NCBI GenBank assembly: GCA_010356995.1
Contig: ML996707.1
Span: forward strand, 434,001 to 498,000
Direction: 5' to 3'
Length of the DNA stretch: 64,000 nucleotides
Origin: Trichodelitschia bisporula
Taxonomy: Eukaryota; Ascomycota; Dothideomycetes; Phaeotrichales; Phaeotrichaceae
This document shows, in pieces, positions 8,544 through 63,499 of this stretch. A model generated the notes under the pieces. It was not told the origin of the DNA and made no database searches. It was given only the letters and a program-made list of their open reading frames with translations. Both the position numbers and the translations under genes were made by a program. The number at the start of each line of letters is the position of its first letter. The stretch's first letter is position 1.

Positions 8544-11495
8544 TCACTGGGGACCCTGGTCTGATGGAGTCAGGTGTGCGCGCGCGTTGGGCGCGTGTGC
8601 GTCATTCTCATGTGGGAGGAGCGCGACGGGAGCCGAGGTTGGGCATGTGTTGAGGAAGGGGTTGGGGGATGACGATGTTGGAGGATGGGGGAGGGATTGG
8701 AGGGTGTCCTGGTGGATTGCTAGGGAGGTGAGGAGGATGAGGGGTGCATTGCTTGGGATGCAGAACTGGCTTGGGTTGGGGGAGGTGGTCGTGAAGGGGG
8801 TGGGCGAGACGGGGATGCGATCCTCGGCCGGGGAGCAGACGGGGAGCGGATTCAGGATGTCGAGTGGAGGTTGAATGGCCGAGGTTAGGGACGACGGCCT
8901 GGGAGAGGTAGAAACTGCGATTGAGGGACGTAGGCTGTCAAGCGCAGTCGACTGCAGGAGCTTGGAGAACGACGTTTCCACCAAGCAGGTCTGCTCGAGT
9001 CGAGGGCCTTCAGCGTCCACCTCATGGGTTTGAGCGTTGACGTCGTCAATCGCCTTGGCCGGAGTTTCGTCCGAAGCGTCCTCGACTGGCGCCGTTTTCG
9101 ATATCGGTTCGGTCGAAGTTGATTCCGAGGTCAATTCGAAAGCGACGTCTTCGTCGAGAGCCTCGTTGAGGGAGATCGAATCTGATGTAGTTTCTTGGGC
9201 TTGTGATACCCCTACCGTGTCGATGGACTCTCCAGCAGGAATCTCTTCTACTGCGGTCGCTTCAATTGCAGCATCTTGGACCAAAAAAGGTGCTTGGAGT
9301 GCGAAGCTCACCACTGGCGGAAGGGCAAGGATAGTCGAAAAGACGACATCCCTTACTGTGTCCGTCATCTGCTCCGTGATGCGGCTGGTAACGGTCTCTG
9401 TTGCCGTCGACACTGCGGTTGAAGTCAGGGTTTGGATTTCCGTGCTAAGGACTGTAGCCGTAGAAATAACGGCGACCATCGAGAACTCCACTGCCGTAGT
9501 CGTCACCACCCTCAAGACCTGAGGTTGAACCAGAACGTCGCCGTCATTCGAAGAGTTCAGGAGTAATCGGTTCGTCGAAAGGACTGACGGCTCGATTGTT
9601 GGCAAACCGGAGCGTAGAGTCATAAACATGACTAGAAGAGCCAGGCAGCAAATAGTGATGTTCCTACGGCTCGTGGCCAGAAGGTAAAGGTAGTTCTTCA
9701 GAAGAGTTGAGAGCGGGACTGTGGAGGCCTTCGATGATTCGGCCTTTGGGAAGTCCTTCGTCGTAGGTTGCGATGGAGTCTTTCGCATTTCGCTCGGGTC
9801 CGAATCTTGGGATTTGGAAGTGTCAGACGGACCAACACCAGTGAGTTTCTCCTCCACAAGCATGACCACCGCATGGGCGGCTCCCACGCTGTTGACCTCG
9901 AGGGCGAGTTCCTCCTCCAGGTCTTGGATCTTCCGCGTATCGTCTCCCGCCGTGTCGCGTTCAAACTGGACCTGTCTGGCCCTCTCCTCACAGATCTCCG
10001 CCTTCGTTTCAGCCTCTTGAACTCTCCCATCAGCCTCCACCCTAGCCATTTCCACGTCAAGGCGCGCCTGTGCCACGATGTTTTCCATGCTCAATCTCTC
10101 CTCCCTCATCTTGTCCTTCTCTTCCGCAACCTTCCGATCCAGCTCCCGTCGCAAGTCCAGCGGGATCCATGGCTCAATCTCTACATCGACGCGTTCCATA
10201 TCATGCCAACAAGCCCCCCATGCCCCGGCCCGAACCAGTCCATTGGAAGCGTAGAAGCGCACATCCCACCGCCGCGTCCCGCTGCCAGTACCGCGGCCAG
10301 GGAGCCGCAGTGGAGCCGCACACTCGCTGCAGCAGATGTCCGAGCCCTCAGAGGATGCACCGCTCATACGAATCAATGCTGCTGACTGTCGCATGTCTCC
10401 GTTGAGGCTGCTGCGCTTGCTACCACCAGCGGAGGATCCAACGCCACTGTCTGTATCGGCCGGTGAGTCGGATGAGAAGTCGCCGGGAACACCATGGACC
10501 AGGAAGTGTCCATCTGAGAGCACACGAGGCGTGCAGAGCTCGAGAGCTTCCAGGAGACGTTCCTCTAGCAGATCATACTCGTCTCCTGGGTGAGAGATCA
10601 GGACACCGCGTGTCATGATGGTAGGGTTTAACTGTTCCCAAAGGAGAGACCAGTTGTCTAGGACGTGGGGCGGAACGACATCGCGGAAGGTGTGTTGCAG
10701 CCAGATAGGTTCCCTGGCCGGGAGAATGGTGACGTGAAGCAGAATGAGAGGTCCCGACTTCGGCTTCGAGTCGTACTGTGACACAGGAAGGTCTGACAAA
10801 ACTGGGGATGGGGGGCCGGGGTCAATAGATCCCATGCGCTGATGACCCTGCATGAGCATTTCCAGCTTCTGTAAGTCGCGGCGTATCTGGACGTTGAGGT
10901 CCTCTTCGTCCCTGTCATCTGAACCGTCGAATGTCGCCATCCTGCGTGTTGTAACCCGGTCGTCGCCAAACTGGGACTCTGTGTTCTCGATGGTCTCTGC
11001 ACGATGGCGAGAGAGTATGATGTCAGATGGATGAGATGGGATTAACTCGTCACCGGCGTGCGCGGGCCACTTTCTGCTGGTGGATGCTTTGGGGGAACCG
11101 ACAACGGAAGGGCTGGCCATCCGTAAAGCTTGCACCTCGCTCGGAGTACGGAAAGGTGGACGGGGTGTTTTGCGTGGCTGATGTGCGGTAAAGTTTGTAG
11201 AGGGTGCGATTGAGGGTGGAATGGAAGAGATGGAAGTGTAAGCGGCAGAAACGTTGCGTGTCTGCGACACGGACGGCAGGTCCGCCGAATTGCCACGCGA
11301 GTGCGTTGGGTAGCGACGTAAGGTCATTGAGTTGCGCTGAGAGATACTTTTGGGGGAAGGAAGCTCGGAGAAGCTAGGTGGGGAGCTGCTTCGGTCGCGC
11401 ATTGCTGCGATGGTGCCAGGCAGTGTCGCTAGGTGGTGTGTGGAAGTGGCCAAAGAAATATCGTGTTGTTGACTGGATTCGACTGCGAAAGGCAT
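8544..11495 (-). CDS. Conserved fungal coiled-coil membrane protein ("pathway-specific nitrogen regulator" family)
   Basis: A single uninterrupted frame of 983 codons on the minus strand. The first ATG gives MPFAVESS; a second (MRDRSSS) lies 31 residues later and could be the true start. Residues 1-200 are Ser/Pro-rich and basic. About residues 245-335 (from GPLILLHVTILPAR, through DEYDLLEERLLE, to the VLSDGHF segment) form the conserved core that I associate with ascomycete proteins labelled pathway-specific nitrogen regulator, a name without good functional support. A CxxC pair (CCSECAAP) and a WDVRFYASNG segment follow. About 445-555 is a charged coiled coil (RRELDRKVAEEKDKMREE). A hydrophobic stretch near 608-628 (NITICCLALLVMFMTL) is a probable single membrane helix. 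The remainder is Thr/Ser/Glu-rich. Function is unknown; the layout suggests a membrane-anchored scaffold. The last hundred residues are low complexity and may hide an unrecognised intron. Confidence 0.8.
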   Translation of the reverse strand: MPFAVESSQQHDISLATSTHHLATLPGTIAAMRDRSSSPPSFSELPSPKSISQRNSMTLRRYPTHSRGNSADLPSVSQTRNVSAAYTSISSIPPSIAPSTNFTAHQPRKTPRPPFRTPSEVQALRMASPSVVGSPKASTSRKWPAHAGDELIPSHPSDIILSRHRAETIENTESQFGDDRVTTRRMATFDGSDDRDEEDLNVQIRRDLQKLEMLMQGHQRMGSIDPGPPSPVLSDLPVSQYDSKPKSGPLILLHVTILPAREPIWLQHTFRDVVPPHVLDNWSLLWEQLNPTIMTRGVLISHPGDEYDLLEERLLEALELCTPRVLSDGHFLVHGVPGDFSSDSPADTDSGVGSSAGGSKRSSLNGDMRQSAALIRMSGASSEGSDICCSECAAPLRLPGRGTGSGTRRWDVRFYASNGLVRAGAWGACWHDMERVDVEIEPWIPLDLRRELDRKVAEEKDKMREERLSMENIVAQARLDVEMARVEADGRVQEAETKAEICEERARQVQFERDTAGDDTRKIQDLEEELALEVNSVGAAHAVVMLVEEKLTGVGPSDTSKSQDSDPSEMRKTPSQPTTKDFPKAESSKASTVPLSTLLKNYLYLLATSRRNITICCLALLVMFMTLRSGLPTIEPSVLSTNRLLLNSSNDGDVLVQPQVLRVVTTTAVEFSMVAVISTATVLSTEIQTLTSTAVSTATETVTSRITEQMTDTVRDVVFSTILALPPVVSFALQAPFLVQDAAIEATAVEEIPAGESIDTVGVSQAQETTSDSISLNEALDEDVAFELTSESTSTEPISKTAPVEDASDETPAKAIDDVNAQTHEVDAEGPRLEQTCLVETSFSKLLQSTALDSLRPSIAVSTSPRPSSLTSAIQPPLDILNPLPVCSPAEDRIPVSPTPFTTTSPNPSQFCIPSNAPLILLTSLAIHQDTLQSLPHPPTSSSPNPFLNTCPTSAPVALLPHENDAHAPNARAHLTPSDQGPQ

Positions 11496-12613: not shown

Positions 12614-15600
12614 ATGGTTTTTCACAGGCCCAAGTGGCTGAAGGGCTCGAAACTAGAGGAGGCGCATGCCCCACCAATTTACAGCCTACCTCCGGTGCAA
12701 CAACGACCCTACAAAGCTTCCGTGCAACCAGTTCGGGTCCAGGAAACAGAAGAGCAGCCTTCTACAACCAATCTCCGACCAGTCGGCGCTCAAGAAGCCA
12801 ACTTTGGCCTTTCGGTTCCGAGACACGGACATCAAAGATGCAATTCAGCATCATCTGACCTGGACGCCATCCCACAGGCGGAGGCCGAAGCTCGCAAGCA
12901 TATCGCAAAGATTCGAGCCGAAAAAGGTCTTGATGGGACCGACAGCAATACTGCCGACTTGCAGGCCGCCCTCGTTGTGTAAGATATGTGCCAGACCGAC
13001 CTCTTCTAGGAACTAACGTGTTCAGTCTTTCTGAGCAGTTGTACCAGAAGTCAACCCACTTTCTCTTGGAGTTGGTGCAAAATGCGGATGACAACGCCTA
13101 CAATGTGCCCAAGCCTACATTAAATATCACATACGAGAAGCGCACCCTTCGTATTGACTGCAATGAAGTCGGCTTTGCTAAGAAGAATGTCGAAGCCATC
13201 TGCCGAATCGGCCGGAGTTCGAAGGCCGGCTTGGATAATTCGAGGCGGTATATCGGCGAAAAGGGCATTGGCTTCAAGTCCGTATTCAGGGTGTCTGATG
13301 TGGTCTCCATCTTCTCCAACCACTACTCATTCAAGTTCGATAAGAGCCAGCGCCTCGGCATGATTGCTCCCATCTGGGAAAAGTTCCCAGCCAAAACTCT
13401 GCCTGGCTACACATCCATTTTGCTACAACTTTCTCAGGATTGCGACGTTGAGGAGCTCATCCAAGAGATCAAGTCATTGGATCCCAGGCTTTTGATATTC
13501 CTGCAGAAGTTGAGACAAATCAACATCTTGATCAAGAGGGATGATGACCTCCCATGGCGCTCAGCGCTCGAGCGCCTTGATGAGCCCACCATTAATAAGA
13601 AGCACCAGCTCATTACCCTGCATCACCGTTCAAAAGTCCTCCCGTACCTTATCTTTCGGCTGCAGGTAGGAAACCTTCCAAAAGATCCGAAGCGCGAAGG
13701 CATATCGCAGTCCGAACTCCTGCTGGCCTTTCCTCTGGACGGTTCAGGCCAGCCTAGAATCGAACCGCAGAACGTCTACGCGTTTCTCCCAGTCCGAGAC
13801 TATGGCTTTAAGGTCTGAGGCTCCTCCAAAAAACCGCCAAAGTACTAACGCCTTTCAGTTCTTACTCCAGGCCGATTTTCTTCTCATTGCTAGCCGCGAG
13901 GACATTAACTCGTCTGCAGACTGGAACCAAGCCTTGCTCCAAATGGTGCCGCTTGCGCTGCACGATGCTATCAAGGAGTTTAATTCGGGGAATATGCGAT
14001 ACTCATGGCTCCCTTATCTACCACTACGCCCGTACGTCGGTGATTTTTTCAAGGGACTCGAAGACCACACGCTTGATGTGCTTCAGACGTCAGCCATCCT
14101 TGAGTCCTTTGACAACAGGCTCATGATCCCAGGGTCACTCATATATGTACCCGCAAAGTTTGCTGATACTGACGGAAAGCCGCTCATTCTCACTAAAAGG
14201 ACGATGGCCAAGTATCTCTCTCACAAATACTCGGCCAATGACTGGTACCGACTTTCCCATCTGGGAGTGCGGAGCCTTACGATTGATGGCTTCATTGACG
14301 ACCTCAGCAGTTACATTTTGGACGATCCAGCTAGCTTTCAAAAGCAGCCTGATGCGTGGCATTCTCGTCTTGCGCAAGTCTTAGTCTCTCAAATCTTCAG
14401 CAACAAAGCGTACCAGGCTGCAATTGCTACCCTCCAGATCGTTCCGCTTCGGGACGGCGGATGGGCGGCTCCAGCTGAAGTAAACCTTTTGTTTCCGTCC
14501 CGTTCAAAGGCTCTCGTTCTGCCGAAAGGACTTGACATTGTCGAAATCCACCCTCGTGCTGAGACGGACAACCCGCGTCGACAGCTCTTCATGGCGCTGG
14601 GAGCCAAAGAATTCCAGAAAGAGCAAATTTGCGATATCATTACTCGGTCCCACGAAAAGCGTGAATTCCAGCCAGAAAAGCTTACGACTGAGGAGCTGGT
14701 GTCCCAGATTGTTTTCCTCTATCAGTCAGGTTGGCGGAATGCCGACAGACGTGATGTGTGGTTCGCCACGGAGAGCGGGAAACGCTGCCACGGCTCGCAG
14801 GCGTACATGGACTCGGATGTTGAGTATGCAGCGAACTCTGTGTTTTCAGAGAGCAGAGGTCAACTGTCGTTCCTCCATGGAGACTACTACAAGGCTTTCC
14901 AGGTTACAGTCACTTCGGACAAGGTGGATGCTACCTCAAAGTCAGAGGATTGGGAGAAGTGGCTCGCTGCCCATATGAACGTGGCTCAGATACCTCGTCT
15001 AGCTACACCGTCCATCGGAGCACCCTTTTCTCTGTCTAAGGAGTTTGAGCAGCTCCTCAACACGCTTTCGTCAACGGAACTGCTGCTTCTGGTCCGGCAT
15101 CATTGGAAATACTACTCACGATGGATTGCGTACGAAGACTCCCGTGTCAAAAAGTCCGTCTGGGAGATTTCACAAGGGAAACTAAAAAAGAAGCTGTCCT
15201 CCATCCAAGTCATGTGTCGCGACGGTACGATGGCTCCGTTGAACAAGACCTTCTTGCCTCTGAGCAGCATGCAACTCGAAAGTTTTGTCTCCGTTCCATT
15301 CCTAGACGTTCCTGAACCTGACGATGACCGATGGGACTTCCTGCGTCACTTCGGCGTGATTGTCGAATTGGATGCCGCTTTCTTCATTGAATGTGTCCGA
15401 AGGTTGAAGGATGGGCAAACCACGCAGAAGCAGGTCTCACAGCTGTACGAGCAGATAAGCTTGTGGGCCACGCGAGACAACGCCGATTCCATCAGACGTA
15501 CCTTCGACTCCCAAAAGCTCATACTCATTCCTGACGATAGCAATGAAAGTGGAGGCGAGTGGGTCAGCATCGAGGAATGTATCTGGAGTGGACCAAAGTG

Positions 15601-18600
15601 TCTCAAGTCGACACACTGCCTGGAAAGGCACTATCCTGAGCACCAGGCCTTACTCAGAGACATGCTGAGAGTTGGAGACGCAAACATCAATACCCTGGTA
15701 TCCGAAGCGCGCTGCATCGTTGCGTCCGACAGCTTGGAGTATATATCGCAGGTTTTTATCGCCCTCAGCAAATACCTGGAGCTGGCAAATTCGGACTCAG
15801 CAGTCAGACCACTTGTTGCATGCCCGATCTTCCCTGTGACGACCGGAAAGTCTAACTCCGAGTATGATTCACTTGCTACTGCGGCACCGGACGACATGTG
15901 GTTTGTGGCTGACCGCTCGCACTTGCGAGATAGTTTCGAACTTCTGGTTCCATTGCTGGCGTTCGGCATTGATGTTGTCGAAAAGATCGGCCCACTCATC
16001 GACTCGCTGGATATGGAGCGTCGTATGCTATCCAAAGTCGCCAAGGGCGTGTCAAAGGCGCATGGAAGAGTTGAGATTGATCCAAAGTACACAAAGTCTC
16101 TTCGACAGAAGGCCAGATTCATTGCTCGGTAAGGTCTTCGGCATCAGCGTTTCGCTCACATGACGTAATTCAGATGCTAATGTCGATCAGACTGGTTCCA
16201 AAGGAAAGCGCGAACCGGGCCGGGATCCTTCGACTGCTTCCCAAGATCGAAGTGTACCAGTCCGAAAAGGTGCTGGTCGAATGGGTCGTCACTCTGTCTG
16301 GAAATACCTTTTACGGTAGGGCCGACGCCGGGAGGGTGACTTCTTCTCCTGGAAAGCTGGGTCTGAAAATCTTCTTGACTGAGGAGGATATCCATGCGGC
16401 GTTGCCACCCCTCGAGCTCCAAGAGGAATTGGCCAACTTTAGCGAGATCCGCGACCCGAAGCATTTCACCATTTTGCTCTACATCCTTATGCAAAATGAT
16501 TTTTCAGCCATTGGAGACACTTTTGAGCGCCGCGGGATATCCGGTGAGGTCCCAGAGTTTGACGCTGCGAGCGGCGGTGCCGACGACGGAGCCGAGCCGC
16601 TGATTCGACCCTCCAAGCCTCAAGAAGCCCAGAGGAACAGGCGACTCCTATTCAAAGGCCGACGCCGGCCCGTTAAAGATCACGACTCTGAAGATGCACT
16701 GTCTTCCTTCATCAAAAAGGTCGAGAGGGTTGTCAATCTCAAGAAGTCGAGTGCAGAGCCATGGGGAAGCACTGATATGGCTGGTCTCTTGTCGAAGATA
16801 TGCAAGGTAGAAAACCGCGATGCTGACATACTTCTACCGCGCCCGCGCTTGGAGCTTGGTGATATGGGCGATCCAGTCGAGTCGATGTTTGATGCGAGAA
16901 CCGGGCAGTGGAAAGAGATGGTCATTCATCCTGACGACCCGACAGCGGCAAGTAAAGATGGGCAGGGGCCTGCGACGGATTATCGAAGAGTTCCCGATGT
17001 GGACGAGGAAACCCGGTACATCGGAGAGCTTTCGGTGTCTAAACTTTTCGAGTCTTACCTGGGCGGCACATACGATCCGAATGTCCACTGGACAAGCCCA
17101 CTACGCGGCAAAGCTGGCCACATGCCTTACGAGAACTGTGGTGCAGGTGCCTCGACATTTACCATATCATCGCAGGGGGAAATGTTCACGAAGTTTTTGG
17201 CGAAGCGTGGATTCCTCCGGGCAGCCTCGTGGACGACGGCGCCAGCCTACCATATTCATGTCGTCTCAACCTACAAGGGACTTCAGTCCACCTTTCTGCT
17301 CGACCCGACACAGGTCGAAAAGGCAAGTTATGGAACGACGTTCTGCAAATCCTAAGGTTTCTAATATGTGGATAGGCTCAAAAGTCCTCGATGCTGCGTG
17401 ACAGCGGCACGTCTCCCAAGGCGGTATTCATTTTAGTCTCTGTCTTCAAGATAACATCAGATCCTGGTATTGCGCTATTCGTCGATCCATGGCAACTTCA
17501 TGTCAACGGATCTCTGTCTCTGCTTTCACGCACGCCTTACTATGCCGCTTTCCAGGACGCGTCGTCTGCCATCTTGTTGCAGGGGACAGTTGATGCTCCT
17601 GAACCACAGCCGTCCGCTGAAGGCGTTCGTAAAGTCTCAAAAACCATGCAGCATGGTGGAAAAGCCGCAGCAGAAACGCAGCGTAGAGCCATGTCAAAGG
17701 ACGGGTATTACACCTATCGGCCGCTGCGCAACCACCGTGAGATCCGCCTTCTCGAGCTTTACCCCGGAAAGGACGACCAGCCCCTAGAAGGGGCGATCCG
17801 CCACGTCTCTGTTGACAAGCCCGGCGTCTACTGGGCTCTATCCTATTGCTGGGGTGCTGCCCTACAGCCTTTTACCTTCGTTACACCTGACGGCAAAATC
17901 CCGCTCACCGCTTCGTTACAAAGTGCCCTGACCGGCATCCGCGATGCTGATGTCTCAACGCTTCTCTGGGCCGACGCAATCTGCATCGACCAGGATACCG
18001 CGCTGGAGAAATGCACACAAATCCGCCTCATGTATACCATCTTTCAGTCGGCCGAAGGCGTCATCGCCTGGTTGGGAGATGAGCGTGACGGCAGCGACCG
18101 CGTCATCGAAACTCTGCTGCAAATCCGCACGCTAGCTATCAAACCTGATATCTGGCCGGAATACCTTCCCGCCGTACCCGTCTCCTGGGATGGAGGTAAC
18201 ATGCCGCCCGCCACCGACACGGTTTGGCGTGACATCGACCGCCTCTTGAACCGCGCGTGGTTCCGCCGCGCCTGGATTGTGCAGGAACTCATCCTTGCCT
18301 CAGCGGTATCTCTGTTCTGCGGCCGCTGGGCCATAAACTGGGATGACTTCTTCGAGGCCCTGAAGCTCTGCCGCGCCGCCGCACACGATCCCGGCCACCC
18401 GCTCCTTCCCCATTCGGACGCCGCCTATGCCCTCGGCCAAGCCCGCCACATGCACGCCCTCACGCCACGGCCACTGCTGACCCTGCTCGACCTCTTCGCC
18501 TACACCAACGCAACGCGCTCGCGGGACAAGCTCTTCGCGCTCCTGGCCCTCGCACCCGACGCCGCTTCCTCGTCTTTTGATCCGGACTACACCTCACCCC

Positions 18601-19454
18601 TCGAAGCCGTGCTCAGGCGCTACGCTGCCACCTTTGTAGTACAGGGTCATGCTCTCTCTCTTCTCCAGCGCGCCGGCACGGGCAAGTCTTACCCCTTCGC
18701 CAGCTGGATCCCGGCTTGGACAGTTGCGGCCGCGCTGCCGACGCTGGCGACGTGGCGCGGAATGGGCGGGACTTTTTGCGCGGGTGGAAGCGGAGTCCAG
18801 CGCGGGGAGGTGCGAGACGTGGCGTTGGTTGTGCGAGGCGTGGTTCTCGATGAGGTCGCGAGCGTGGTGAGTCCCCGGTCTGCGGATGTGGATGTCATTT
18901 CTTGGATCAACGGCCTGCGCAAAGCGGTCCTGGATCTGCGTTCCTACCCCTCGGGCGAGAGCCGCGCGGATGTGGCGCGTGCATTGCCGATTGGCGCGGC
19001 GGCGGGGCCGGTGGTTGAGCCTCCGGCTGGGAAGGTGCCGGGCATTCTTACGGGGACAGCATCGGCAGGATGGGCATCGTGGCCGAAAGACTACACGAAA
19101 TTGGTGGAGCGGGCGGGTGTTGGAAGTGTTGGGGATATGGTTTCGTTCCTCAAGCGGCCACCGGCGGAGCGTGAGGTCGTGTGGAATTATTGGCAGACTG
19201 CCGGGGCGTTTGAGGGAAGGTTTGGGAGCGCTGGGGCAGTGGGTGCTGTACTGGGGAAAGGATGGGTGGGAGTTCTCAATGCGGGAGTTGAGAAGGGAGA
19301 TCAAGTTGTATTGCTTGAGGGAGCGGCGTGTCCGCTTGTACTGCGGGGGGAGGGGGAGAGCTGGAGAGTGGTTGGGGAGGGGTACGTGCATGGAATTATG
19401 TATGGGGAGCGATGGGAGAAAGAGAAGGGTGGGAGGGAGTTTGTGCTTGTTTGA
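12614..19454 (+). CDS. GHKL ATPase (NO VEIN/sacsin-like) - DUF3883-like - HET domain fusion
   Basis: Exons 12614-12978, 13026-13812, 13859-16128, 16191-17322 and 17376-19454 give about 2210 residues. The start is uncertain; 12614 is the first in-frame ATG of exon 1. Domains in order: (1) GHKL ATP-binding module, about 120-330, with N-box ELVQNADDN (from residue 137), NEVGF, and GEKGIGFKSVF (near 200). (2) A long sacsin/NOV-like middle without a named domain. (3) A DUF3883-like fold, about 1450-1577, whose usual ExK motif reads IHVVST. (4) A C-terminal HET domain, about 1665-1815, with WALSYCWG, LLWADAICIDQ and RRAWIVQELIL. The last intron uses a GC donor (GCAAGT). The final exon encodes the end of DUF3883 and all of HET without a stop, so they are one protein. 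HET domains are TIR-related cell-death effectors in heterokaryon incompatibility. Inference: an ATP-driven sensor coupled to a HET effector. Function is untested. Confidence 0.85.
17323..17375 (+). other. GC-AG intron in the ATPase-HET gene
   Basis: The donor reads AAG|GCAAGT instead of GT; a CTAAT branch-like site and ATAG acceptor follow. No GT in this stretch restores frame into the DUF3883 continuation, whereas the GC donor does so exactly. Confidence 0.8.
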
Positions 19455-21484: not shown

Positions 21485-21733
21485 TGTTTCCGATTTGCGT
21501 CCTGCCTGTTGGCCCGCTTGTACGGCTGATACCAGAGTCTTCGGTGCGCCTCTGCGTCCAATCCCTTCGAGAAGGCGGCAAGAAAAGCTCCGTGTCAAAG
21601 CTTAGCCCGTGGTAGCTTTCTTCCAACGACCTACAAAAAAAAAGCAAACACCCCGCTCGCGCAATAAAACCTCCCGCTTTCGAAGTCTACAGCTTCTTCG
21701 TCTGCTCTCACAACTCCCTACAACACCACGGCT
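19455..21733. other. Gene-free stretch and elongase leader
   Basis: About 2.3 kb without a supportable gene. Short frames at 19489-20440 and 20422-20891 are mutually overlapping and unlike known families. The last 300 bp include a CT-dinucleotide tract and a pyrimidine-rich leader for the elongase. Confidence 0.5.
21447..21482. repeat. (CT)n microsatellite upstream of the elongase
   Basis: Roughly seventeen uninterrupted CT units, about 250 bp before the elongase ATG. Pyrimidine tracts near transcription starts are common in filamentous fungi. Confidence 0.9.
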
Positions 21734-24536
21734 ATGTCCGGGCCCAGCCTGACGCTGCGGCTGCCGCCCAGGTGGCTGTTCGCCTTCCCTCCCGACCCCG
21801 TTCCCCTCGCACTGCCGCCGCCGACCGACGCTCGCACCTTCGCCAGCCCGTTCCCCATCGATGCGAAGCTCTTCAACGATGCGCTTGATTGGAAGGTGCC
21901 TGTCACCATTGGCGCTGTCTATGCGACCACCGCCATCTTCATGAACCGGATCAACCGCGAGCGTGGCAACAAGCCCTGGGGCTTCTCCAAGACGGCCGCC
22001 TTCCACTACTTCGTCCTCGCGCACAACATCTTCCTCGCCGTCTTCTCCGCTCTCACCTTCGTTGGCATGATCCGCGCCCTCGCACACTCGTGGCCTGGCA
22101 ACCGCGAGCTGTACATCATCGGCAAGTGGTGGCCGGGCCTGCGCACGCAGAACGGTCTGGCGGGTGCGGCTGATGCGCTCTGCAAGATGCATGGTCCGCG
22201 CGGTATTGGCGATGCGACCTACTACGACCCGCACACTCATACCTGGCTGAACAAGAACCCGAATGTGTTGCTCGCGGCCAACGGTGCTCCTGAGAACAGC
22301 GATGTTGGGCGTCTTTGGAACGAGGGTCTTGCATTCTGGGGCTGGTGGTTCTACCTCTCCAAGTTCTACGAAGTCCTCGATACCTTCATCATCTTGGCCA
22401 AGGGCAAGCGCAGCTCCACTCTGCAGACATACCACCACACGGGTGCCATGGCGTGCATGTGGGCGGGCATTCGCTACATGAGCCCTCCTATCTGGATGTT
22501 CTGCTTCTTGAACTCGGGTATTCATGCTATGATGGTAAGTGCAGCGCTCTGCTGTTGTCGCTTCCGGACGCTAATGGCCCCAGTACACCTACTATACACT
22601 CTCGGCGCTTCGCATCAAGGTTCCCCAGCGCATCAAGCGCACGCTGACGACCATGCAAATTTCCCAGTTTCTCATCGGCATGACCTTTGCGGGCCTGCAT
22701 CTCTTCGTCCACTACACCGTTCCCGTTTCGGTGCCGATCACCGTCACCGAGACCATCAGCTCCGCTATCTCGAGCGCTTCGGCTGCTGTCGCTAGTGTCG
22801 CATCTGAGGCCTCGTCGGCTGTTGCTGCGGGCGCCACGGCTGGGCTCATGGACGGTCTTAAGAAGGCGCTTTTCCGCGCTGCTGGTGAGGAGGGGCTTGC
22901 GGAGAACGTTGGGCGTCGCACTCGCGAGCCTGCGTTGAGCCGTCCTTCGAGCATTCCGGGCCACCAGATCCGCAAGCAGACCCATATGCACACCGCGTAC
23001 CAGGAGATTCCGTGCATCGACACGCAGGGACAGGCCTTTGCCGTCTGGCTCAACCTGATCTATCTTGCGCCCTTGACGTAAGTGTTCCACTGAATTGTTA
23101 GAAGACTCACCTAATCGTGTTTAAGCCTGCTCTTCGTCCGCTTCTTCATCCGCTCCTACACGCGTCGTGGCTCTCCCTCTACCAAGCACCAGACGGACCG
23201 CCGCCGCGGACAAAAGGCCATTGCTGATGCCGTGCACGGTGTTGATCGTGAGCTCAAGACTCTCGGCTCTGACGGCGCCGCTCCCGACTCTGCCCCGAAT
23301 GGCAAGAAGCACACCAACGGGTCCGCTCAACCGAACGGTCGTCACCACTCGGCGGGAAACGACCAGGCCGCGCATGATGAGGACGCTCCGCTTTCTCCTA
23401 CTCTGCACACTCCCCGTCAACCGGAACGCAACGAGGCTCTCGAGGCCCCTCGGAGCAGCTCTTCCTGCAGCGACAAGCGCCGCGTCAGCTCCACCATCGA
23501 GCGCATCGCGCAGACCTTCGCAAAGGGATCCGATGAGGCTGTCCAGGAGGAGCGTCGCGGCAGCGGTTCGGTTCGCGTTCTGAGGCAGAAGGCGAGCGAG
23601 GGCCACGAGAATCTGCGTCGGCGGTTCGAGGAGGGCGCGAAGGCGGTGCAGCCTCGCTCTGAGGACACTATCCGTCGCCAGGCGAGCTCGAGCTCCATGC
23701 GTGGCGCCTCGGCCAAGGATGACGATTCAAAGTTCTCCATGAGCTCGGATGTTATCGATCGTCTGGCGGACCAGGCTGAGGAGATGGTCAAGCGTGTGAA
23801 GCGTGCAGTCGAGACGGAAGTGTCGGTGGACCATGTGGATGATGAGGAGTCCGACGGGGCGGAGCATGAGGCTAGCTCGGAGTCCGGTGTCCTGGTTAAC
23901 GGACCGGGGTTCTCGCCTGAGGAGCTTGTGCCTCGCTCGTCCAGCCCGCGCAAATCGCGCATCCCTCTGGCTAAGACGCGCAGCGCTAGCCCGATGAAGA
24001 AGGGCGCGAAGGAGAGTGCGCCGGGTAAGAACGCGGAGGAGCGGACCCAGGATGGAACTACGGACCAGCTGATGACTAACGGTAAATCTACCCAGGAGAC
24101 GAGTCCCGCGTCCCCACGCCCGCGTGCGGCAGCGCGCGGCGCTAGCTCGCGTTCTCTGAACGACGGCGCCAGCAGCGATGAATCCCGCGTGGCTGACGAC
24201 GAGGGTGTGGGCAAGGCGGGGCTGGGGAGTGCGGAGGACAAGAGGGCTGATGATAACGAGCAGGCTTCTTCGACGACGGACGGGGACGAGCAGGGTGCGC
24301 GGGGGAGGTCGCCGAGCCGTGGGGCTTCAGCGCCGGCGTCGGAGCGGCGGGATGGGTCTGCTGAGGGGGAGGGGTTGAGTACGGATGATCCGCGCGAGGT
24401 GGGGGTTAGTTATGCGGATATGTTGCACAAGGGAGATGCTGAGAAGGAGGAGAAGGGGGAGAAGGAGGGATTGAGTGCGGATGATCCACGCGACGTGGGC
24501 GTTAGCTACGCCAACATGGTGCAGGCGGGAGCTTGA
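21734..24536 (+). CDS. Fatty-acid elongase (ELO/Gns1 family) with long C-terminal tail
   Basis: Exons 21734-22534, 22584-23077 and 23126-24536 encode about 901 residues. The first ~460 are the ELO condensing enzyme (3-ketoacyl-CoA synthase) of the endoplasmic reticulum, which extends long-chain fatty acids with malonyl-CoA. Motifs: KFYEVLDT, the histidine box read as QTYHH at residues 231-235 (most relatives have HxxHH), HAMMYTYY created across intron 1, and TTMQISQ. Several hydrophobic helices surround them, and FVRFFIRSY ends the last one. The remaining ~430 residues are hydrophilic, Ser/Glu/Arg-rich and low in hydrophobics, far beyond the 300-350 residues of a standard ELO protein. The tail ends with two copies of a GLS-DDPR-VGVSYA unit. 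The single long third exon makes the tail part of the protein, not a second gene. Substrate length cannot be deduced. Confidence 0.9.
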
Positions 24537-56170: not shown

Positions 56171-57235
56171 AATGGGCCGGTGATGGTGAGGCGTGCCCAT
56201 ATGGGTTGAATGCCGAAAAGTCAGCTCATACGTTCGTAAGGTGTCGGTGGCGACATCTTGCAAACGTTCCATGACGTGCTTTATGACCTCATGAACTGCT
56301 CTGTCTCTGATATTGAAGGCAAGCGCCTTCGACACTGTAGAACTACAGTCTTGAACTCTGATCTTAAGGCACCCGAACAAAGTGCTGGCAGCCGTGGTCC
56401 GCTAAAACGTCCGGGCAGGGCGGCCATGATTTTCAATTCGTCTCTCGACGTTGAGACACCAGATCAAATTTGCCTCGAATAACGGTTCTTATATCGAACA
56501 CCCCAACTAGAAGCTTACATATCGACTGAGATAGGCTGTTACCAGCAGGATATCGTCAATCTGATATATCTTCTATGACTATTTGCCAGAGATGTCCTGC
56601 CAATGTATGGCTGTAAATAGATAGGCTAGCGCCACAGTGTGCGGGTAGCCATGGTGACGATCGCAAGGCACAAGCAGGGGTGGCGAGCCTCAAACATCCC
56701 GGAAGGGAAAAAACAATGCTGACTCGCCATGATGCAGCACATCAATTCTCCATCTCATACTCTTTCCAGATGCGAAATAAATAATTGTTTGTGCGTATCT
56801 AATCGACGACCACAAACAACACGTCTATCTTCCAGCGGCCTCACAGACTCTGCGCTGTGAAGGCAAGTAAGCCCAGCAAAGGCAACTGCACCTCGCCGTC
56901 GTGGACCAACCGCATCGCTCGGCCCTGTGTACCTTTTCCTAGCGCTGCAGCGAAACCTCAACCTCACAATCTCCATCCATCCCCCACTCCAACTTCCGGA
57001 GAAACGACTTTCGAAGACCACATCCTTCTCTCTCCCGTGTTTGATGGGCCCATTCTTCCCGGGCACATCATAGCTATAATCTACGACCATTTCCACCCCG
57101 CCAACCCGCGAAACCCCACCCAAAACTACATGTAGCAAGGCAGTGAGGTGGGTAAACAAACGCTCCTTCCGGCTTTCTCTTCACCCCACCACAATTCCGT
57201 TCGCGATTCTGACCGTGCAATCATTTGTAGATTCC
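56171..57235. other. Intergenic region
   Basis: No gene supported. The frame leading into the next gene is open from 57143 but has no ATG before 57236. Confidence 0.5.
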
Positions 57236-60200
57236 ATGCCTGCGCCCCTTGCATCGCAGACACGAGCGTCTGCGCCTGCAAAGGCCGCGGACCCCGCGAA
57301 ACCCGCCCCAAAGCTCACGACGCGCAACCTCGTTGGCGGCAAACCGATTGACGTCCACAGCAACGCTACAGTGCGCGACAAAGTGCGAAAATGGCATCTT
57401 AAAGGCGGAGGCGTAATCACGCAGGATGACGTTTTGGCGGACTCTGATGCGGAGGTGCCTGCGAAAGAACCCGTGAAGGAGGCAAAGGAGTCAAGGGAGC
57501 CGTCCGTGGTCGAAAACAGCAAGGAGCTGGTGCTTGTCAAGCCTGATGGCGTCAAGTCAGACGTCTCCTCCAGGTCCAAGGGCAAGGGGGAATCGGTGCT
57601 TGTCGCGCCGGATGGCGTCAAGTCAGACGTCTCCTCCAGGTCAAAGGGCAAGAGCAGAGCGGGCTCCGAGACACCTGTTGTCGTTGTCGAGTATGACACC
57701 GCCGATGCGCCAGCAACCCCACAGCGTAGCCACGTTTCAATCCGCGAAGCCGTAACCGAACCTGCACGTCCGCGCATCATCGAACATCGACCAAAGGCAG
57801 ACAGCGCGGAGGGTCGAATTGTCGATCCTCCCTCCACCCCTCACCAAAGCGACTTATCGCTCCGCGAACCACCTGCTACCGATCCGCTCAAGCCGCGCAT
57901 CGTCGAACGCAAGCCCCGTCCGAACACGCTTGATGAGGAAATCCACGAGGCTACGGCGCCAAAGAAACGCGTTGTCAGCGACAGTCGTTGGCGGCGACAG
58001 CACTCTCCCACCAAGCCCACCCAGCCGAAAGAACCGGCGCCGCCTCCTGCATCAAACCTTTCTAAGAAGGACGTCAAGCTTGCGTGGGTCCGGCCACCGC
58101 TCCTTCCACGCCAGAGCGGCGGGACGGAAGAACCACCGAAACCGAAACCAAAGCCTCCTGCGAAGCCGATCGGTGTGTATTCTGGCAAGGTACAGCAGCC
58201 TCGTCGTCCGCTCGCTGCCACCGTACTCAGCCCTCTCCTTAATAAACTGGAGGGCTCGTTCCTCGACACGCCTCCACAGCAAATCCAGCCTCTCAGCCCG
58301 CCTCGTACGAGATCCACTCTTCGCAAAAAGCCTCCTCAACCGCGTGCTACGTCACCAGATTGGGTCAGCAGTGACGACGACGACATCCATCCTAGTCGCA
58401 ATAACGCTCGTCGACGCCGCAGCAGCGCACAGCCTGAACCATTCATTGACCGACGCACCTCGAAGAACCGGCGAAAGAGCCGCGAGACCCTCTCTGAACC
58501 CTCTCTCTCATCCTCCGAAGAATCCCCAGAGCGACGTCCTAGCGATCGTCGGCGAAACAAGAGTGCCGGGCCTGGAGGTCAAGACTATCGTGGCTATGTT
58601 AGTGACCGCAGACCGAGCAGCGATCGGCGAGCCAGCATGACAAAGAAGCCATCAATGGACGCGCACGATATTCCACATGGCATGCGGCGTGAGAATCACA
58701 TGCGATCGAAAACCGAAGGCAGTTATATGGAGGATAGAGGCTACAAGCAGTCCCCTCGACCGCGGCAAGATCATGATTATGGCCGAACAGCGGCCGATTA
58801 TCGTAGCGAGTACGAAAAGTTTGCGCCTCGGCGTGATCCGTACGACACAGAGCGGAGTGGCACCGTGCGGAGAAAGCAGCCTCCTGCTTACGAGGCAGCT
58901 GAAGATGAGCCCCCTCCACTCCAGCCAGTCTCTGGCAACCGCGTCGAGGCATGGCTTTCCGGGACTCCAGATCCCTTCACAACTCCTAAAAAGAAGCCTG
59001 ATCGCAGAGTGTTCTCATTTGAGCAAACGAGCAAGCTTGAGCTTTCGCCTTCAGATGTCACCTCAGAGAGCCACAGTCCGGATGTGCGGTCTAGCAAGCG
59101 AAAGTCTTCATCGAAGAAAAGCAAGGATCTTAGGGTGGAGACTGAATTGCGGCGACATGTACGCGCGCACTCTGAGCCACTTAACCACGACTTGGAGTCA
59201 GAGACGGGCTACTCATCCACCACATCTGCATCGACATTGAAGCGCAGCGGCGCGCACCGCGGTCACGCACGTACCCCGACGCGCGACTTGAAGTCTCCTC
59301 GATACGATGACACAAACACGGATGTCTCAACGGCGACTTCCTTGACTGAGAGTTCTCGCCTCACCGAGACAACCGTCACTGACAGCTCTCATCTCACCGG
59401 ATCTGTCATCACCGAATCTGTCATCACAGAGTCGACCATCACTGATTCAACCCTCACCGAGTCAACTCTCACTGAGAGTGATTTGACTTCGAGCGCGCTC
59501 TCATCGTCAGTTGATCCGCGGCAATTTGAGCTTCCCGAGCTCCGCCCGCGGCCTGGCATGCCGGGGTACGTTGCACGACGGATGTTCCCCTCCACAGGCA
59601 AACGCCTCTCGACCATTGCATCAGTCGAAACATTCAACACGAAAGCACAACAGGCGCCTCCATCGGAGATTTCAGAAGGCGGCTCGGAAGTCAGCCAAGC
59701 CACCGAGCGGCCAGCCAGCGACATCGTCACGGACCTCCCGAACATGGCTGGTGACAACACCGTGGGAGCATCCAAGAGCCGTGCTAGCCTGAAGAGACGC
59801 CTTACGAAGCACTCCGATCTGATGACCGTTCTCTCGATGCCGGGTGCGACGAGGAGCAAGAGCATCATCTCTGCTCGCAGCATCCGCACGCACCGCAGTC
59901 GTCTCGAGACGGCCACCGTGCAGGATCTCATGCGAGAGCTCGCATCCGATGAGTCCAAATACATGCGCGAGCTGCGCACCCTCGCTGACAGCGTTATTCC
60001 CGTGTTGCTAAAATGCCTGCTCTCCAAGTCCGAGGCCTCGGTGGCCGTTGGGCTTTTCAACAAGGCGCTCACGACGGAGAAGGAGGCCATTGCGGCGACG
60101 ACGAAGACGATAACCGACATGAGTATCGCAGTCAAGAAACTCAAAACACTCCATAAGCGGATTCCCAAGGAGAGCCATACCTCGTTTCTGATCTGGGCGC

Positions 60201-63200
60201 AAAGTGCACACAAACACTACTCAGAGTACGTCGGCACATGGCGGCTCGGGTTTCAGGACGTAGTTGTCAATCTGGTTGCGGAAGAAGGTGCCTCGACGGT
60301 CGTTGGAACGCAACTGACAACGGGGATTGAGGACGGCATGCAGCGGAACGACGAGGGATACATCGTCACCGGTGATGGAGAGCGTGTTGACGTCGAGTAC
60401 CTCCTGCGGCGACCGCTCGTGCGCCTCAAGTACCTGACCAAAACGGTCAAGGGCATCAACTACAAGCAACCCTCAGAGGCGACGTCCGCTCTATTCACCA
60501 AGTTCCAGAACTTACTCGATACCTGCAGGAAGAAGATCAACGACGAGCGGGCCCGGATCGAAGATGAAGTTGCGGCGATGATCGATGCCACTCGCGCTCG
60601 GGATCCCAGGACCCTGGCACCGTTGGCTGGTGTCAAAATCGATCCGACACGTCGCGTGCGCGCACGCGACTTCTTCGACCTTAGTTTCTCACACTCAAGC
60701 GGGCAGCAATTCGACTCTCGAATCGAAATGCTGATGCGCGACGATGCTCCCGGCAAAGGCAACGGTGGCGATGTCTTGATTTGCGACGTCGACGTCACTG
60801 GCCGGTGGTTGTTCCTTCCTCCTGTACAACTCAACCGCATCTCCACCCGCGCTGGAGATGAATTTGGCGAAATTGTCGTCATGATCCGTGGGGGTGTGTC
60901 TACGAATAAGGAGTGGCGCGAGATGTTCACACTCCGGACAGATGATGAGGAAGTTCGATTCGAGTGGATCTCGATGCTGGGTCTTACCCCTGAACCGCCT
61001 AAAATGGTCCGCACGCGAACTTTTAGGGAAGCTTGCCCTACAAGCAGCCACGGCTCATCACTCGTTTCTACATCGACCCGTACCGACTCCACTTACACAT
61101 ATACCAGCGGCTCATCGGGTGCTCAGGAGAGCCTCGTTCCAATTGGTGCTCGGCCTGGTGCCAATGCAAAGAAGTGGAGTGCGGATACCCCAGAGCGGCG
61201 TTCACCAGAGGTGGGCTCGCCGGTATCGCCGCCGAGCAGTGACAGCACTAGCCACCATTCGAAGCTGGACGACGTCGATACCATCTCAACTTTCTCATGG
61301 GGCACAAGCTACATCCCCGCACATCGGCGAAAGACACCAGAACCAATTGAAGGAGCTTCAAGCACATCCTCAATCCTGCCTCAGGAACAGGTTCCGGACC
61401 GTTCCGCGAGCATGCCTCGAGACTTGAACGAAGCCATGGCACTTGCCGGCCGGGCCGAGCCTTCCACTCCGACATTGAAGCGCACCACCGCCAAGCGCTA
61501 CCACCACCGCAAGACTCCTTCTTTGCCAACGACGCCTGAGGAACGGTGCTCTCCTCCACTGGCGGCGCCCACGAAGTCCCCAGTGCAGCCGTCTTCCGAG
61601 CCCACTCGCCGTTCCTCTGGTACGAAGCAAACATCGTCACGCCAACCAAGCAAGCGCCAAGCCAAGAAGCCCGAGTCCAAAGGATTCAGCGTCTGGTTAC
61701 CGACATCAGATGCAGAGCTGAGCGACGATTCTGACAAGTCCGGCGAGGAGACGTCGCCAATTGCTAGGTCTAAGCATAATCGCTCATCTTCAGTGCCGAT
61801 TCTCGACCTTCCGAATATCCCGAAGTTGAGGAAACCGGAGGTGAACTCGGGAGATCGTCAGGTAAGAGAAAATCGCAACACGAGCGGTCCTAGCAGGACG
61901 CAAACAAAGTCTCGTCCACCTTCTGGAAAACCTTCACCCAGCCCCCCCGAGCCCGAGACCCCGCCTCCCCCTCCACCGCACCGCTCGCCGAGTTCATCTC
62001 AGGGGAAGCTTGGAACAATACCTACTTTCACACCCACTCCTACCCAACAGAAGCGCAGATCTTCCTCGCCCCTGAAGCACGAATACCAGCCGTCCTCCCC
62101 GAGTTTGACCTCAAGCTCGTCCGAGGAGTACACTGATGACGATATCTCGCAGTCTTCATCGAGTGATTCGGAAGACGATAGCATCGACAACATAGAAGAC
62201 GACGATATCATCAGTCAGTTATCCTCAGCCATGGTCGCACCATCTCGTATCGCAGCTCAGGAGAGAATGTACTCGATTCCAAACGCCCCGGCCACGGTGA
62301 CGCCTTCTCAGTCAGCTTCGCAGGCGCCATACAGGAAAGTCGTGAAGCAGTCCAGCGATATCATGTTCAAGACTTACGCCACCGTCTTCGCTTGGCTTGA
62401 CGACCGTGGCCGCCATGATAATCTTCATACATCTGAATGCCTGATCGTTGTCTCTCCCGGTCTCATCGAAGCCTTCGATGATGGGTCTGCGGACGGTCCG
62501 CCGCTCATCGCACTGGAGCTGACTCCGATTGTGAGCATCCATCGTGGGACCGTGATTGACGTCAGCATCCAGTCGCCTGTGACCGAGGGCTCCAAGCTGA
62601 AGCCGAAGTCGCGGCAGTTCATGTTCCGTGTGCGCGACTCTTTGGAGGCCGAGGCTTTCTATGGTCAAGTGAACAAGGCGCGGAACAACAATCCAACATA
62701 CAAGCTACTGCAAGACGCACGCCCGGCGCCGCCAGCTGACCCAGCTTGGGCATCTGGTCTGGATCGCGCAAACAGCTTCCGTGCGCAGGGTGCCGGGCCT
62801 GCGCCTAGTTTCTGGAACATTGGCACTCGTCGCTCTCGTAGTTACCGCGCGTCTACTCGTGCTCCGTCTACCGCCGCAAACACCGAGAGCTCAGTCCGGA
62901 CCATTCAATCTGTTCTTTCTGCGATGAAGCGTCTCGGTGCTAGCCGCTTGTTCAGCAACACCCGGGCCAATTCAAGCAACAATGAGGGTTCGTTCGAGAA
63001 CGACGGATCCGGAGGCGAGACTCCCCCGACCGAGCTTATTGGCGGTGCGCAGGGATTGATCGCCAGCGCAAAGGTCCGGCTCTACACTCGGCCCCACAGC
63101 ACCTCGCGGAATTTTCGTGACATTGGCTCAGGACGTCTCTTCATCAAGCGCCCGGAGCCGGACAATACGCCCAACGCGCCTGCCCGCTTGCACACGGGGT

Positions 63201-63499
63201 CGGAGAAGCGTGTCATGGTGGTCAACGAGAAGCGCGGCAATGTCATGCTTGATGTTACTCTAGGCTCGATGTGCTTTGAGCCTCTGGCTCGTGTCGGCAT
63301 TGCCGTCAGTGTGTGGGAGAATGTGGCCGAGGAAGGTGGCGTTGCTCATCAGGGCGGCGTTAGTGAGCGGCGTGTGCGCCTCTATGTTCTTCAGGTAAGT
63401 CTCTATGCTCTGGGATACAATTCAGATACTAACGTCTTGCAGTTGAAGGACGTCCAGAACACGGCGTACATTCTCTCGTTGCTGAGGGGTCGGAACTAG
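57236..63499 (+). CDS. Large DH/PH-like (RhoGEF-related) repeat-rich protein
   Basis: Exons 57236-63394 and 63443-63499 give about 2071 residues. Residues 1-700 are disordered, rich in Ser/Pro/Arg, with two internal duplications. At about 702-752 is a run of TES/TDS pentapeptides. About 890-1060 is helical and resembles a Dbl-homology domain: VQDLMRELASDESKYMRELR, VIPVLLKCLLS, WAQSAHKHYSEYV and RPLVRLKYLTKTVKGI. About 1135-1250 resembles a PH domain ending in EEVRFEWISMLGL. More disordered Ser/Pro sequence follows, then a second PH-like region near 1700-1820 (FAWLDDRGRHDNLHTSECLI) and a conserved C-terminal module (GSGRLFIKRPE, NVMLDVTLGSMCFEPLARVG). Ascomycete relatives are often labelled SRm160/300-like, which the domains do not support. 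Probable role: cortical or Rho-GTPase-linked scaffold; activity unproven. Confidence 0.85.
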   Translation: MPAPLASQTRASAPAKAADPAKPAPKLTTRNLVGGKPIDVHSNATVRDKVRKWHLKGGGVITQDDVLADSDAEVPAKEPVKEAKESREPSVVENSKELVLVKPDGVKSDVSSRSKGKGESVLVAPDGVKSDVSSRSKGKSRAGSETPVVVVEYDTADAPATPQRSHVSIREAVTEPARPRIIEHRPKADSAEGRIVDPPSTPHQSDLSLREPPATDPLKPRIVERKPRPNTLDEEIHEATAPKKRVVSDSRWRRQHSPTKPTQPKEPAPPPASNLSKKDVKLAWVRPPLLPRQSGGTEEPPKPKPKPPAKPIGVYSGKVQQPRRPLAATVLSPLLNKLEGSFLDTPPQQIQPLSPPRTRSTLRKKPPQPRATSPDWVSSDDDDIHPSRNNARRRRSSAQPEPFIDRRTSKNRRKSRETLSEPSLSSSEESPERRPSDRRRNKSAGPGGQDYRGYVSDRRPSSDRRASMTKKPSMDAHDIPHGMRRENHMRSKTEGSYMEDRGYKQSPRPRQDHDYGRTAADYRSEYEKFAPRRDPYDTERSGTVRRKQPPAYEAAEDEPPPLQPVSGNRVEAWLSGTPDPFTTPKKKPDRRVFSFEQTSKLELSPSDVTSESHSPDVRSSKRKSSSKKSKDLRVETELRRHVRAHSEPLNHDLESETGYSSTTSASTLKRSGAHRGHARTPTRDLKSPRYDDTNTDVSTATSLTESSRLTETTVTDSSHLTGSVITESVITESTITDSTLTESTLTESDLTSSALSSSVDPRQFELPELRPRPGMPGYVARRMFPSTGKRLSTIASVETFNTKAQQAPPSEISEGGSEVSQATERPASDIVTDLPNMAGDNTVGASKSRASLKRRLTKHSDLMTVLSMPGATRSKSIISARSIRTHRSRLETATVQDLMRELASDESKYMRELRTLADSVIPVLLKCLLSKSEASVAVGLFNKALTTEKEAIAATTKTITDMSIAVKKLKTLHKRIPKESHTSFLIWAQSAHKHYSEYVGTWRLGFQDVVVNLVAEEGASTVVGTQLTTGIEDGMQRNDEGYIVTGDGERVDVEYLLRRPLVRLKYLTKTVKGINYKQPSEATSALFTKFQNLLDTCRKKINDERARIEDEVAAMIDATRARDPRTLAPLAGVKIDPTRRVRARDFFDLSFSHSSGQQFDSRIEMLMRDDAPGKGNGGDVLICDVDVTGRWLFLPPVQLNRISTRAGDEFGEIVVMIRGGVSTNKEWREMFTLRTDDEEVRFEWISMLGLTPEPPKMVRTRTFREACPTSSHGSSLVSTSTRTDSTYTYTSGSSGAQESLVPIGARPGANAKKWSADTPERRSPEVGSPVSPPSSDSTSHHSKLDDVDTISTFSWGTSYIPAHRRKTPEPIEGASSTSSILPQEQVPDRSASMPRDLNEAMALAGRAEPSTPTLKRTTAKRYHHRKTPSLPTTPEERCSPPLAAPTKSPVQPSSEPTRRSSGTKQTSSRQPSKRQAKKPESKGFSVWLPTSDAELSDDSDKSGEETSPIARSKHNRSSSVPILDLPNIPKLRKPEVNSGDRQVRENRNTSGPSRTQTKSRPPSGKPSPSPPEPETPPPPPPHRSPSSSQGKLGTIPTFTPTPTQQKRRSSSPLKHEYQPSSPSLTSSSSEEYTDDDISQSSSSDSEDDSIDNIEDDDIISQLSSAMVAPSRIAAQERMYSIPNAPATVTPSQSASQAPYRKVVKQSSDIMFKTYATVFAWLDDRGRHDNLHTSECLIVVSPGLIEAFDDGSADGPPLIALELTPIVSIHRGTVIDVSIQSPVTEGSKLKPKSRQFMFRVRDSLEAEAFYGQVNKARNNNPTYKLLQDARPAPPADPAWASGLDRANSFRAQGAGPAPSFWNIGTRRSRSYRASTRAPSTAANTESSVRTIQSVLSAMKRLGASRLFSNTRANSSNNEGSFENDGSGGETPPTELIGGAQGLIASAKVRLYTRPHSTSRNFRDIGSGRLFIKRPEPDNTPNAPARLHTGSEKRVMVVNEKRGNVMLDVTLGSMCFEPLARVGIAVSVWENVAEEGGVAHQGGVSERRVRLYVLQVSLYALGYNSDTNVLQLKDVQNTAYILSLLRGRN
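63395..63442 (+). other. 48-nt in-frame, stop-free intron
   Basis: Donor CAG|GTAAGT, branch ACTAAC and acceptor TTGCAG are near perfect, yet the length is a multiple of three and contains no stop. Splicing gives YVLQ-LKDVQNTAYILSLL; retention would add 16 residues. Confidence 0.8.

Follow-up and report, generated by a model that had tools for sequence, protein, structure and literature searches.

A Tiamat/NO VEIN-type GHKL ATPase predicted to carry a C-terminal HET domain in Trichodelitschia bisporula and other ascomycetes

The gene at positions 12614-19454 (+) of a 64,000-nucleotide stretch of the Trichodelitschia bisporula genome (contig ML996707.1; the whole stretch is hereafter called the window) raises the question of how an ATPase of the GHKL superfamily and a fungal HET domain came to lie in one predicted protein, and what such a protein might do. 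It had been read from the nucleotide letters, in what is here called the original prediction, as an immune-type receptor in which a GHKL ATPase takes the place of the nucleotide-switch module. The answer that is reasonably probable after the present analysis is a different one: a GHKL ATPase of the Tiamat/NO VEIN type that would carry a fungal cell-death output, its own nuclease output having decayed after HET was added.

The gene consists of five exons on the + strand, as are all features below unless stated otherwise, and these splice in frame to a product of 2210 amino acids that matches the annotated Trichodelitschia bisporula protein EJ06DRAFT_240603 (NCBI) with 100% identity over 100% of its length. 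Exon 1 (12614..12978) encodes an N-terminal leader (residues 1-121 plus 2 nt), and exon 2 (13026..13812) the core of the GHKL (Bergerat-fold) ATPase, including the N-box ELVQNADDN (residues 137-145; 13069..13095) and the G2 box GEKGIGFKSVF (residues 199-209; 13255..13287). A long middle region occupies exon 3 (13859..16128) and extends into exon 4 (16191..17322), which also encodes a linker and the first half of a NOV_C-like (DUF3883-like) domain beginning at about residue 1425 (17041). Exon 5 (17376..19454) is a single open frame, stop codon included, and contains the rest of NOV_C (to about 17621), a linker, the HET domain and a C-terminal module, with the HET motifs WALSYCWG, ADAICIDQ and RRAWIVQEL all in frame. 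The introns are 47, 46, 62 and 53 nt long and each has a CTAAC/CTAAT-like branch site; the last (17323..17375, GCAAGT...CTAAT...TAG) is of the GC-AG type. The original prediction had quoted these GHKL and HET motifs, held that the introns keep the frame and placed the DUF3883 tail and the whole of HET in exon 5, and on each of these points the gene model bears it out.

Whether the two halves truly belong together is the first matter to settle. A gene-merging or mis-splicing artefact involving two adjacent genes might be suspected from the GC-AG intron at the junction, and from Xylogone sp. PMI_703, in which the ATPase part (P0006; relatives are cited by such numbers) ends exactly at the junction, at the position of intron 4, and the HET part (P0192) is modelled separately on a contig of equal length. 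However, the second half of NOV_C and the entire HET module share one open frame in exon 5. A search with the HET module alone, in which about 8,000 candidates were scored, returned 59 proteins, and 22 of these also contain the end of NOV_C, ahead of HET in one predicted protein. All 22 come from jgi, ena or lgn sources; judging by where they start and how long they are, each would be a single uninterrupted frame, and many of them begin near the start of exon 5, as would be expected from an intron-blind caller. Together with the 107 family members that agree on the architecture (see below), the open exon 5 frame and these 22 proteins exclude a merging error for practical purposes, as the original prediction had argued, and the artefact explanation is hardly credible. 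The Xylogone pair is probably one gene split by annotation. On the gene models, therefore, the GHKL/NOV_C part and HET are fused in one predicted protein.

Were intron 4 retained, translation would end at 17353-17355, leaving a protein of about 1528 amino acids that lacks HET, which makes this intron a possible splice switch. The models of relatives P0006 and P0110 terminate close to this same stop.

The architecture is widely distributed. A full-length search gave 182 relatives, 120 of which were listed, and another search, started from a HET-less relative, yielded 87; about 8,000 candidates were scored in each, and the counts that follow describe the listed proteins rather than the whole family. 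HET is present in 107 of 149 listed fungal or fungal-like members, the Trichodelitschia bisporula protein included, according to precomputed Pfam assignments, with which a purpose-built HET model agreed in 183 of 183 proteins. In all 107 the domain is C-terminal, starting at 0.61-0.86 of the protein length, so that the conserved domain order in other ascomycetes for which the original prediction proposed to look is indeed found. Members looked up, one per class, represent at least five ascomycete classes (Dothideomycetes, Leotiomycetes, Sordariomycetes, Eurotiomycetes and Orbiliomycetes). Among HET-less relatives, P0123 and P0129 (Verticillium albo-atrum) contain a NUDIX domain, located after NOV_C in P0123, and P0149 (Cudoniella) has an HSP70 ahead of the ATPase; these are either other partner domains or merged models.

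The ATPase half is a member of the NO VEIN/Tiamat family as judged by profile matching. Residues 94-754, from the leader into the initial part of exon 3, match the PADLOC profile for TmtA (PDLC03972) with an expectation value of 5.9e-83, covering profile positions 4-668 of 1302, or about half of the profile. Cyanobacterial relatives match the profile over the whole of their own length, and it is also matched by a plant relative (3e-126) and a fish relative (8.7e-143). The ATP-site asparagine of the N-box, Asn141, is present in all 103 HET-bearing sequences with a letter at that position (105 rows aligned). TmtA is a protein of the anti-phage system Tiamat, the mechanism of which is listed as unknown in the relevant entry of PMC10482375, and part of an environmental survey (PMC12409356) records that Tiamat matches in plant samples sat on plant contigs.

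The Pfam scan of the protein returned two domains, HET and a single SACS stretch at residues 168-227 (8.8e-12; 45.8 bits against a cut-off of 32.8). The Pfam name of the latter, 'Sacsin domain', and the description of sacsin as a chaperone (PMC3710099, in part) invite the view that this is a chaperone or stress protein, a sacsin-like quality-control machine in which HET is an interaction domain and not a killer. This is quite unlikely: the family is that of Tiamat and NO VEIN, neither DnaJ nor HEPN was detected by Pfam at E<=1 and there is one SACS stretch where sacsin has several modules, and published accounts (PMC10197012 and PMC12881547, both in part) describe HET as enough by itself to kill fungal cells. 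Membership of sacsin was rejected on the same domain content. Membership of the NLR/STAND proteins was also rejected, since the scan yielded no NACHT or NB-ARC with repeats at E<=1. With no trace of a nucleotide-binding and oligomerisation domain (NOD) at that threshold, replacement of NACHT/NB-ARC was likewise discarded.

Between the ATPase and HET lies the NOV_C domain, which the original prediction did not recognise as a decayed nuclease in the HET-bearing proteins. PF13020 itself has no match in the protein at E<=1, and the assignment was made by a chain of pairwise profile comparisons, in which the HET-bearing domain matches the HET-less one with a probability of 100, the HET-less domain matches the bacterial one with 94.8, and the HET-bearing domain matches the bacterial one with 84.8. 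The C-terminal NOV_C of bacterial TmtA was modelled as a PD-(D/E)XK nuclease, and its D, E and K are invariant. A second look at the model, the invariant triad and the naming of DUF3883 as a novel restriction endonuclease (REase) domain in a section of PMC3710099 lead to the nuclease reading, so that NOV_C looks like a domain of PD-(D/E)XK descent. A Foldseek search with NOV_C gave nothing at E<=0.001, the best match being SPARDA at 0.013. A further family, PF27504, is precomputed for most relatives.

In the Trichodelitschia bisporula protein the site reads Y-H-I-H-V-V-S, and both the D/E and the K are missing, H1497-V1498-V1499 (17257..17265) standing in place of D/E-x-K. Across the family, with K or R scored as intact (R occurs in 5 of the 36 intact HET-less rows), 101 of the 102 HET-bearing proteins scored have a broken (D/E)xK, as against 4 of the 40 HET-less proteins scored (36 intact); the region is missing from five HET-bearing (P0082, P0087, P0095, P0108 and P0147) and two HET-less (P0143 and P0148) proteins, which were left unscored. 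The one HET-bearing row counted as intact, P0079, seems to have a mis-modelled junction; P0110, which is closely related to it, has IEVC there. The four broken HET-less rows are P0006 and P0110, which are probably truncated models stopping near the (D/E)xK point, and the sisters P0119 and P0127. The routes of loss differ among the HET-bearing proteins (K lost and the acid kept in 64, both lost in 31, and K kept with the acid changed to L or F in 6, around P0031), which points to decay after the fusion and not to one founding mutation. Full Tiamat membership, for which a C-terminal NOV_C with D...(D/E)xK was required by a rule derived from alignment with cyanobacterial TmtA and not from a published definition, was rejected on this evidence, and the protein is for the same reason named Tiamat-like, not Tiamat.

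One observation complicates this account of decay after the fusion. The first acid of the triad, D, is present in just 3 of 40 HET-less and none of 101 HET-bearing proteins; as it is already gone from 37 of the 40, fungi lost a portion of the site earlier than HET or independently of it. An independent-pairs test of decay against HET had only one or two contrasts and thus no power. The sole HET-less proteins with the first-position D plus E-V-K, a bacterial-like arrangement, are P0134 (Aplosporella), P0145 (a eukprot transcriptome) and P0149 (Cudoniella), and the first two of these branch together.

HET is among the most abundant domains of filamentous fungi, and most HET proteins have no assigned role. 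Here the domain (PF06985) covers residues 1670-1822 (17829..18287) with an expectation value of 3.9e-26 (92.6 bits; cut-off 22.5). The W, Q and E of WIVQEL do not vary among the 102 HET-bearing proteins that have a letter at these positions (107 were aligned), and the position of this glutamate, E1822 (18285..18287), presumably resembles that of the TIR catalytic glutamate. The C-terminal part of the module (18288..19451) corresponds to PF26639, which we take to be the 'Het-6 barrel'; precomputed assignments list this family for the protein and for most of its HET-bearing relatives. A model of exon 5 gave nothing at E<=0.001 in a Foldseek search of the PDB. The domain is known as an effector of cell death in fungi (PMC10197012 and PMC12881547, cited above).

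The protein made up of GHKL, middle region and NOV_C is the older component, with relatives among bacteria and also in a plant, a fish and Cryptosporidium, and HET is an addition at its C-terminal end. The original proposal that the GHKL ATPase replaces a nucleotide-switch module is better put the other way round, with HET joining a GHKL-nuclease protein of older standing. The ATPase was placed in a 154-row FastTree tree and a 58-row IQ-TREE tree, the latter covering 37 of the 107 proteins that bear HET; fragments (P0087, P0121, P0143, P0146 and P0148) were omitted from the 154-row tree. In the 58-row tree HET-bearing proteins form three clades, with support of 93, 95 and 99 by the Shimodaira-Hasegawa-like approximate likelihood ratio test (SH-aLRT). 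The two trees disagree on how the clades join, and HET-less proteins adjoin clade C in both. Forcing the HET-bearing proteins of the 58-row tree together costs 1.06 log units (approximately unbiased test, p-AU 0.474), so a single clade is not rejected, and one fusion followed by later losses of HET fits the data; the ATPase tree is compatible with one gain of HET and with two, and does not tell them apart. The 154-row tree needs four HET changes, two of them due to the probably truncated P0006 and P0110.

The HET trees have 43 rows (25 fused) and 98 rows (63 fused). In the former, from which P0212 and P0213 were omitted, the 25 fused modules group in a single clade apart from 18 further HETs, two of them from this genome (SH-aLRT 94). 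In the latter P0212 and P0213 nest among the fused modules, with a support of 65 for the joining branch; P0212, with its broken NOV_C tail, probably represents part of a fused gene, and P0213 shows no such tail. P0069 and P0070 (Fonsecaea and Clonostachys) have an ATPase part that groups with clade B and a HET that groups with clade A relatives, which suggests later exchange of the HET module between paralogues. In the most likely history, HET would have been attached once, to a protein still carrying (D/E)xK, and the site would then have decayed by several routes, since the output now fell to HET.

The GHKL and middle regions may sense a non-self or damage cue, and an ATP-dependent shape change or dimerisation of the GHKL part could follow. 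The dead nuclease domain might be retained as a scaffold or nucleic-acid-binding part, and HET domains brought together would cause cell death along the TIR-like route that has been suggested for HET, possibly with loss of NAD+. As to the cue, homology to Tiamat favours a virus- or mobile-element-related signal, and the HET part taken alone also fits allorecognition.

In an antiviral or anti-transposon sensor the Tiamat trigger would be kept, perhaps with nucleic acid held by the dead nuclease, and the answer would be cell death. Homology to an anti-phage protein and the retention of a nuclease-type domain stripped of its catalytic site are in keeping with such a role, but nothing in the analysis links the fungal protein to viruses, and the idea is possible, if somewhat unlikely. 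An allorecognition (het) gene, with alleles of this protein or of its partner varying from strain to strain and setting off incompatibility when hyphae fuse, is improbable. Several cloned het genes do carry HET (PMC10890737 and PMC10197012, in part), some genomes have more than one copy (e.g., P0033, P0038 and P0056 in Cercophora sp. LCS_1), and the conflicting trees of P0069 and P0070 suggest shuffling. However, most HET genes are not het genes (in P. anserina 4 of 132 are, as given in a passage of PMC10890737), and the paralogue search in the Trichodelitschia bisporula genome gave six matches outside the gene, in the HET region only and at 28-39% identity, with no second copy of the ATPase half. 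Furthermore, 11 chosen close pairs, three of which share a species name, contain no hypervariable domain; the most divergent part was the linker (residues 1141-1420) in eight pairs and NOV_C in three. An NLR-like repeat sensor is not supported by these pairs, and the strong allelic polymorphism anticipated in the original prediction was not seen in them. What survives of that prediction is the single protein, its conserved architecture, HET as a module at the C-terminal end, and the immune-type reading, which kinship with TmtA and the HET death effector support; the GHKL part as a NOD substitute does not.

A broader proposal can be made tentatively, at a little short of even chances: that these proteins constitute a widespread, undescribed class of fungal immune receptors from the Tiamat lineage, onto which HET was welded once, and in which the ancestral PD-(D/E)XK nuclease then lost the remainder of its active site and now serves as sensor or scaffold, a nuclease defence having turned into suicide. 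A conserved HET partner homologous to a bacterial defence ATPase is a concrete sensor candidate; the class would add to the immune parts common to bacteria and fungi and would give an example of effector replacement traceable on a tree. That the fungal (D/E)xK was dropped almost only where another killer domain is present also hints at the C-terminal nuclease as the output of Tiamat. The parts are known and the architecture is already in protein databases as annotated HET proteins; no published description of a GHKL-NOV_C-HET architecture was found in searches of open-licence literature. A scan of six bacterial-type relatives without NOV_C for other C-terminal effectors gave SACS and a sub-threshold HNH only.

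Elsewhere in the window, an ordinary ELO-family fatty-acid elongase gene adjoins this one (21668-22795, +; PF01151, 6.1e-35). A 983-amino-acid open reading frame (8544-11495, -) has no Pfam match at E 0.01, and a 2118-amino-acid open reading frame lies at 57143-63499 (+).

Several known systems share parts of this architecture. The non-NLR HET proteins of the HET-6/HET-B type also have HET followed by a C-terminal module, and Podospora BH combines HET, HAD and a lectin fold, with no GHKL/NOV_C part in the description given in the excerpt of PMC10890737. The fungal HET-NACHT-WD40 NLRs (HET-E/D/R) likewise place a HET death effector in a large nucleotide-binding protein, but there HET is N-terminal and the switch is NACHT (PMC10197012 and PMC4986451, in part), whereas in the Trichodelitschia bisporula protein HET is C-terminal and the ATPase is GHKL. 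Sacsin belongs to the same GHKL superfamily and differs in its three Hsp90-like modules, DnaJ and HEPN, and sacsin-like proteins of sponges are fused to DEATH domains (both from parts of PMC3710099); the latter are the nearest precedent found for a fusion of GHKL with a death domain, the partner there being DEATH and here HET. The NO VEIN (NOV) type of plants and its animal relatives (P0167 and P0169) share GHKL and a C-terminal NOV_C, and P0167 and P0169 differ in keeping E-V-K in NOV_C and in the absence of HET. Tiamat (TmtA) has the same GHKL ATPase and middle region followed by a NOV_C-type domain; to this plan the fungal protein adds about 600 C-terminal residues with HET, behind a NOV_C in which the (D/E)xK is broken.
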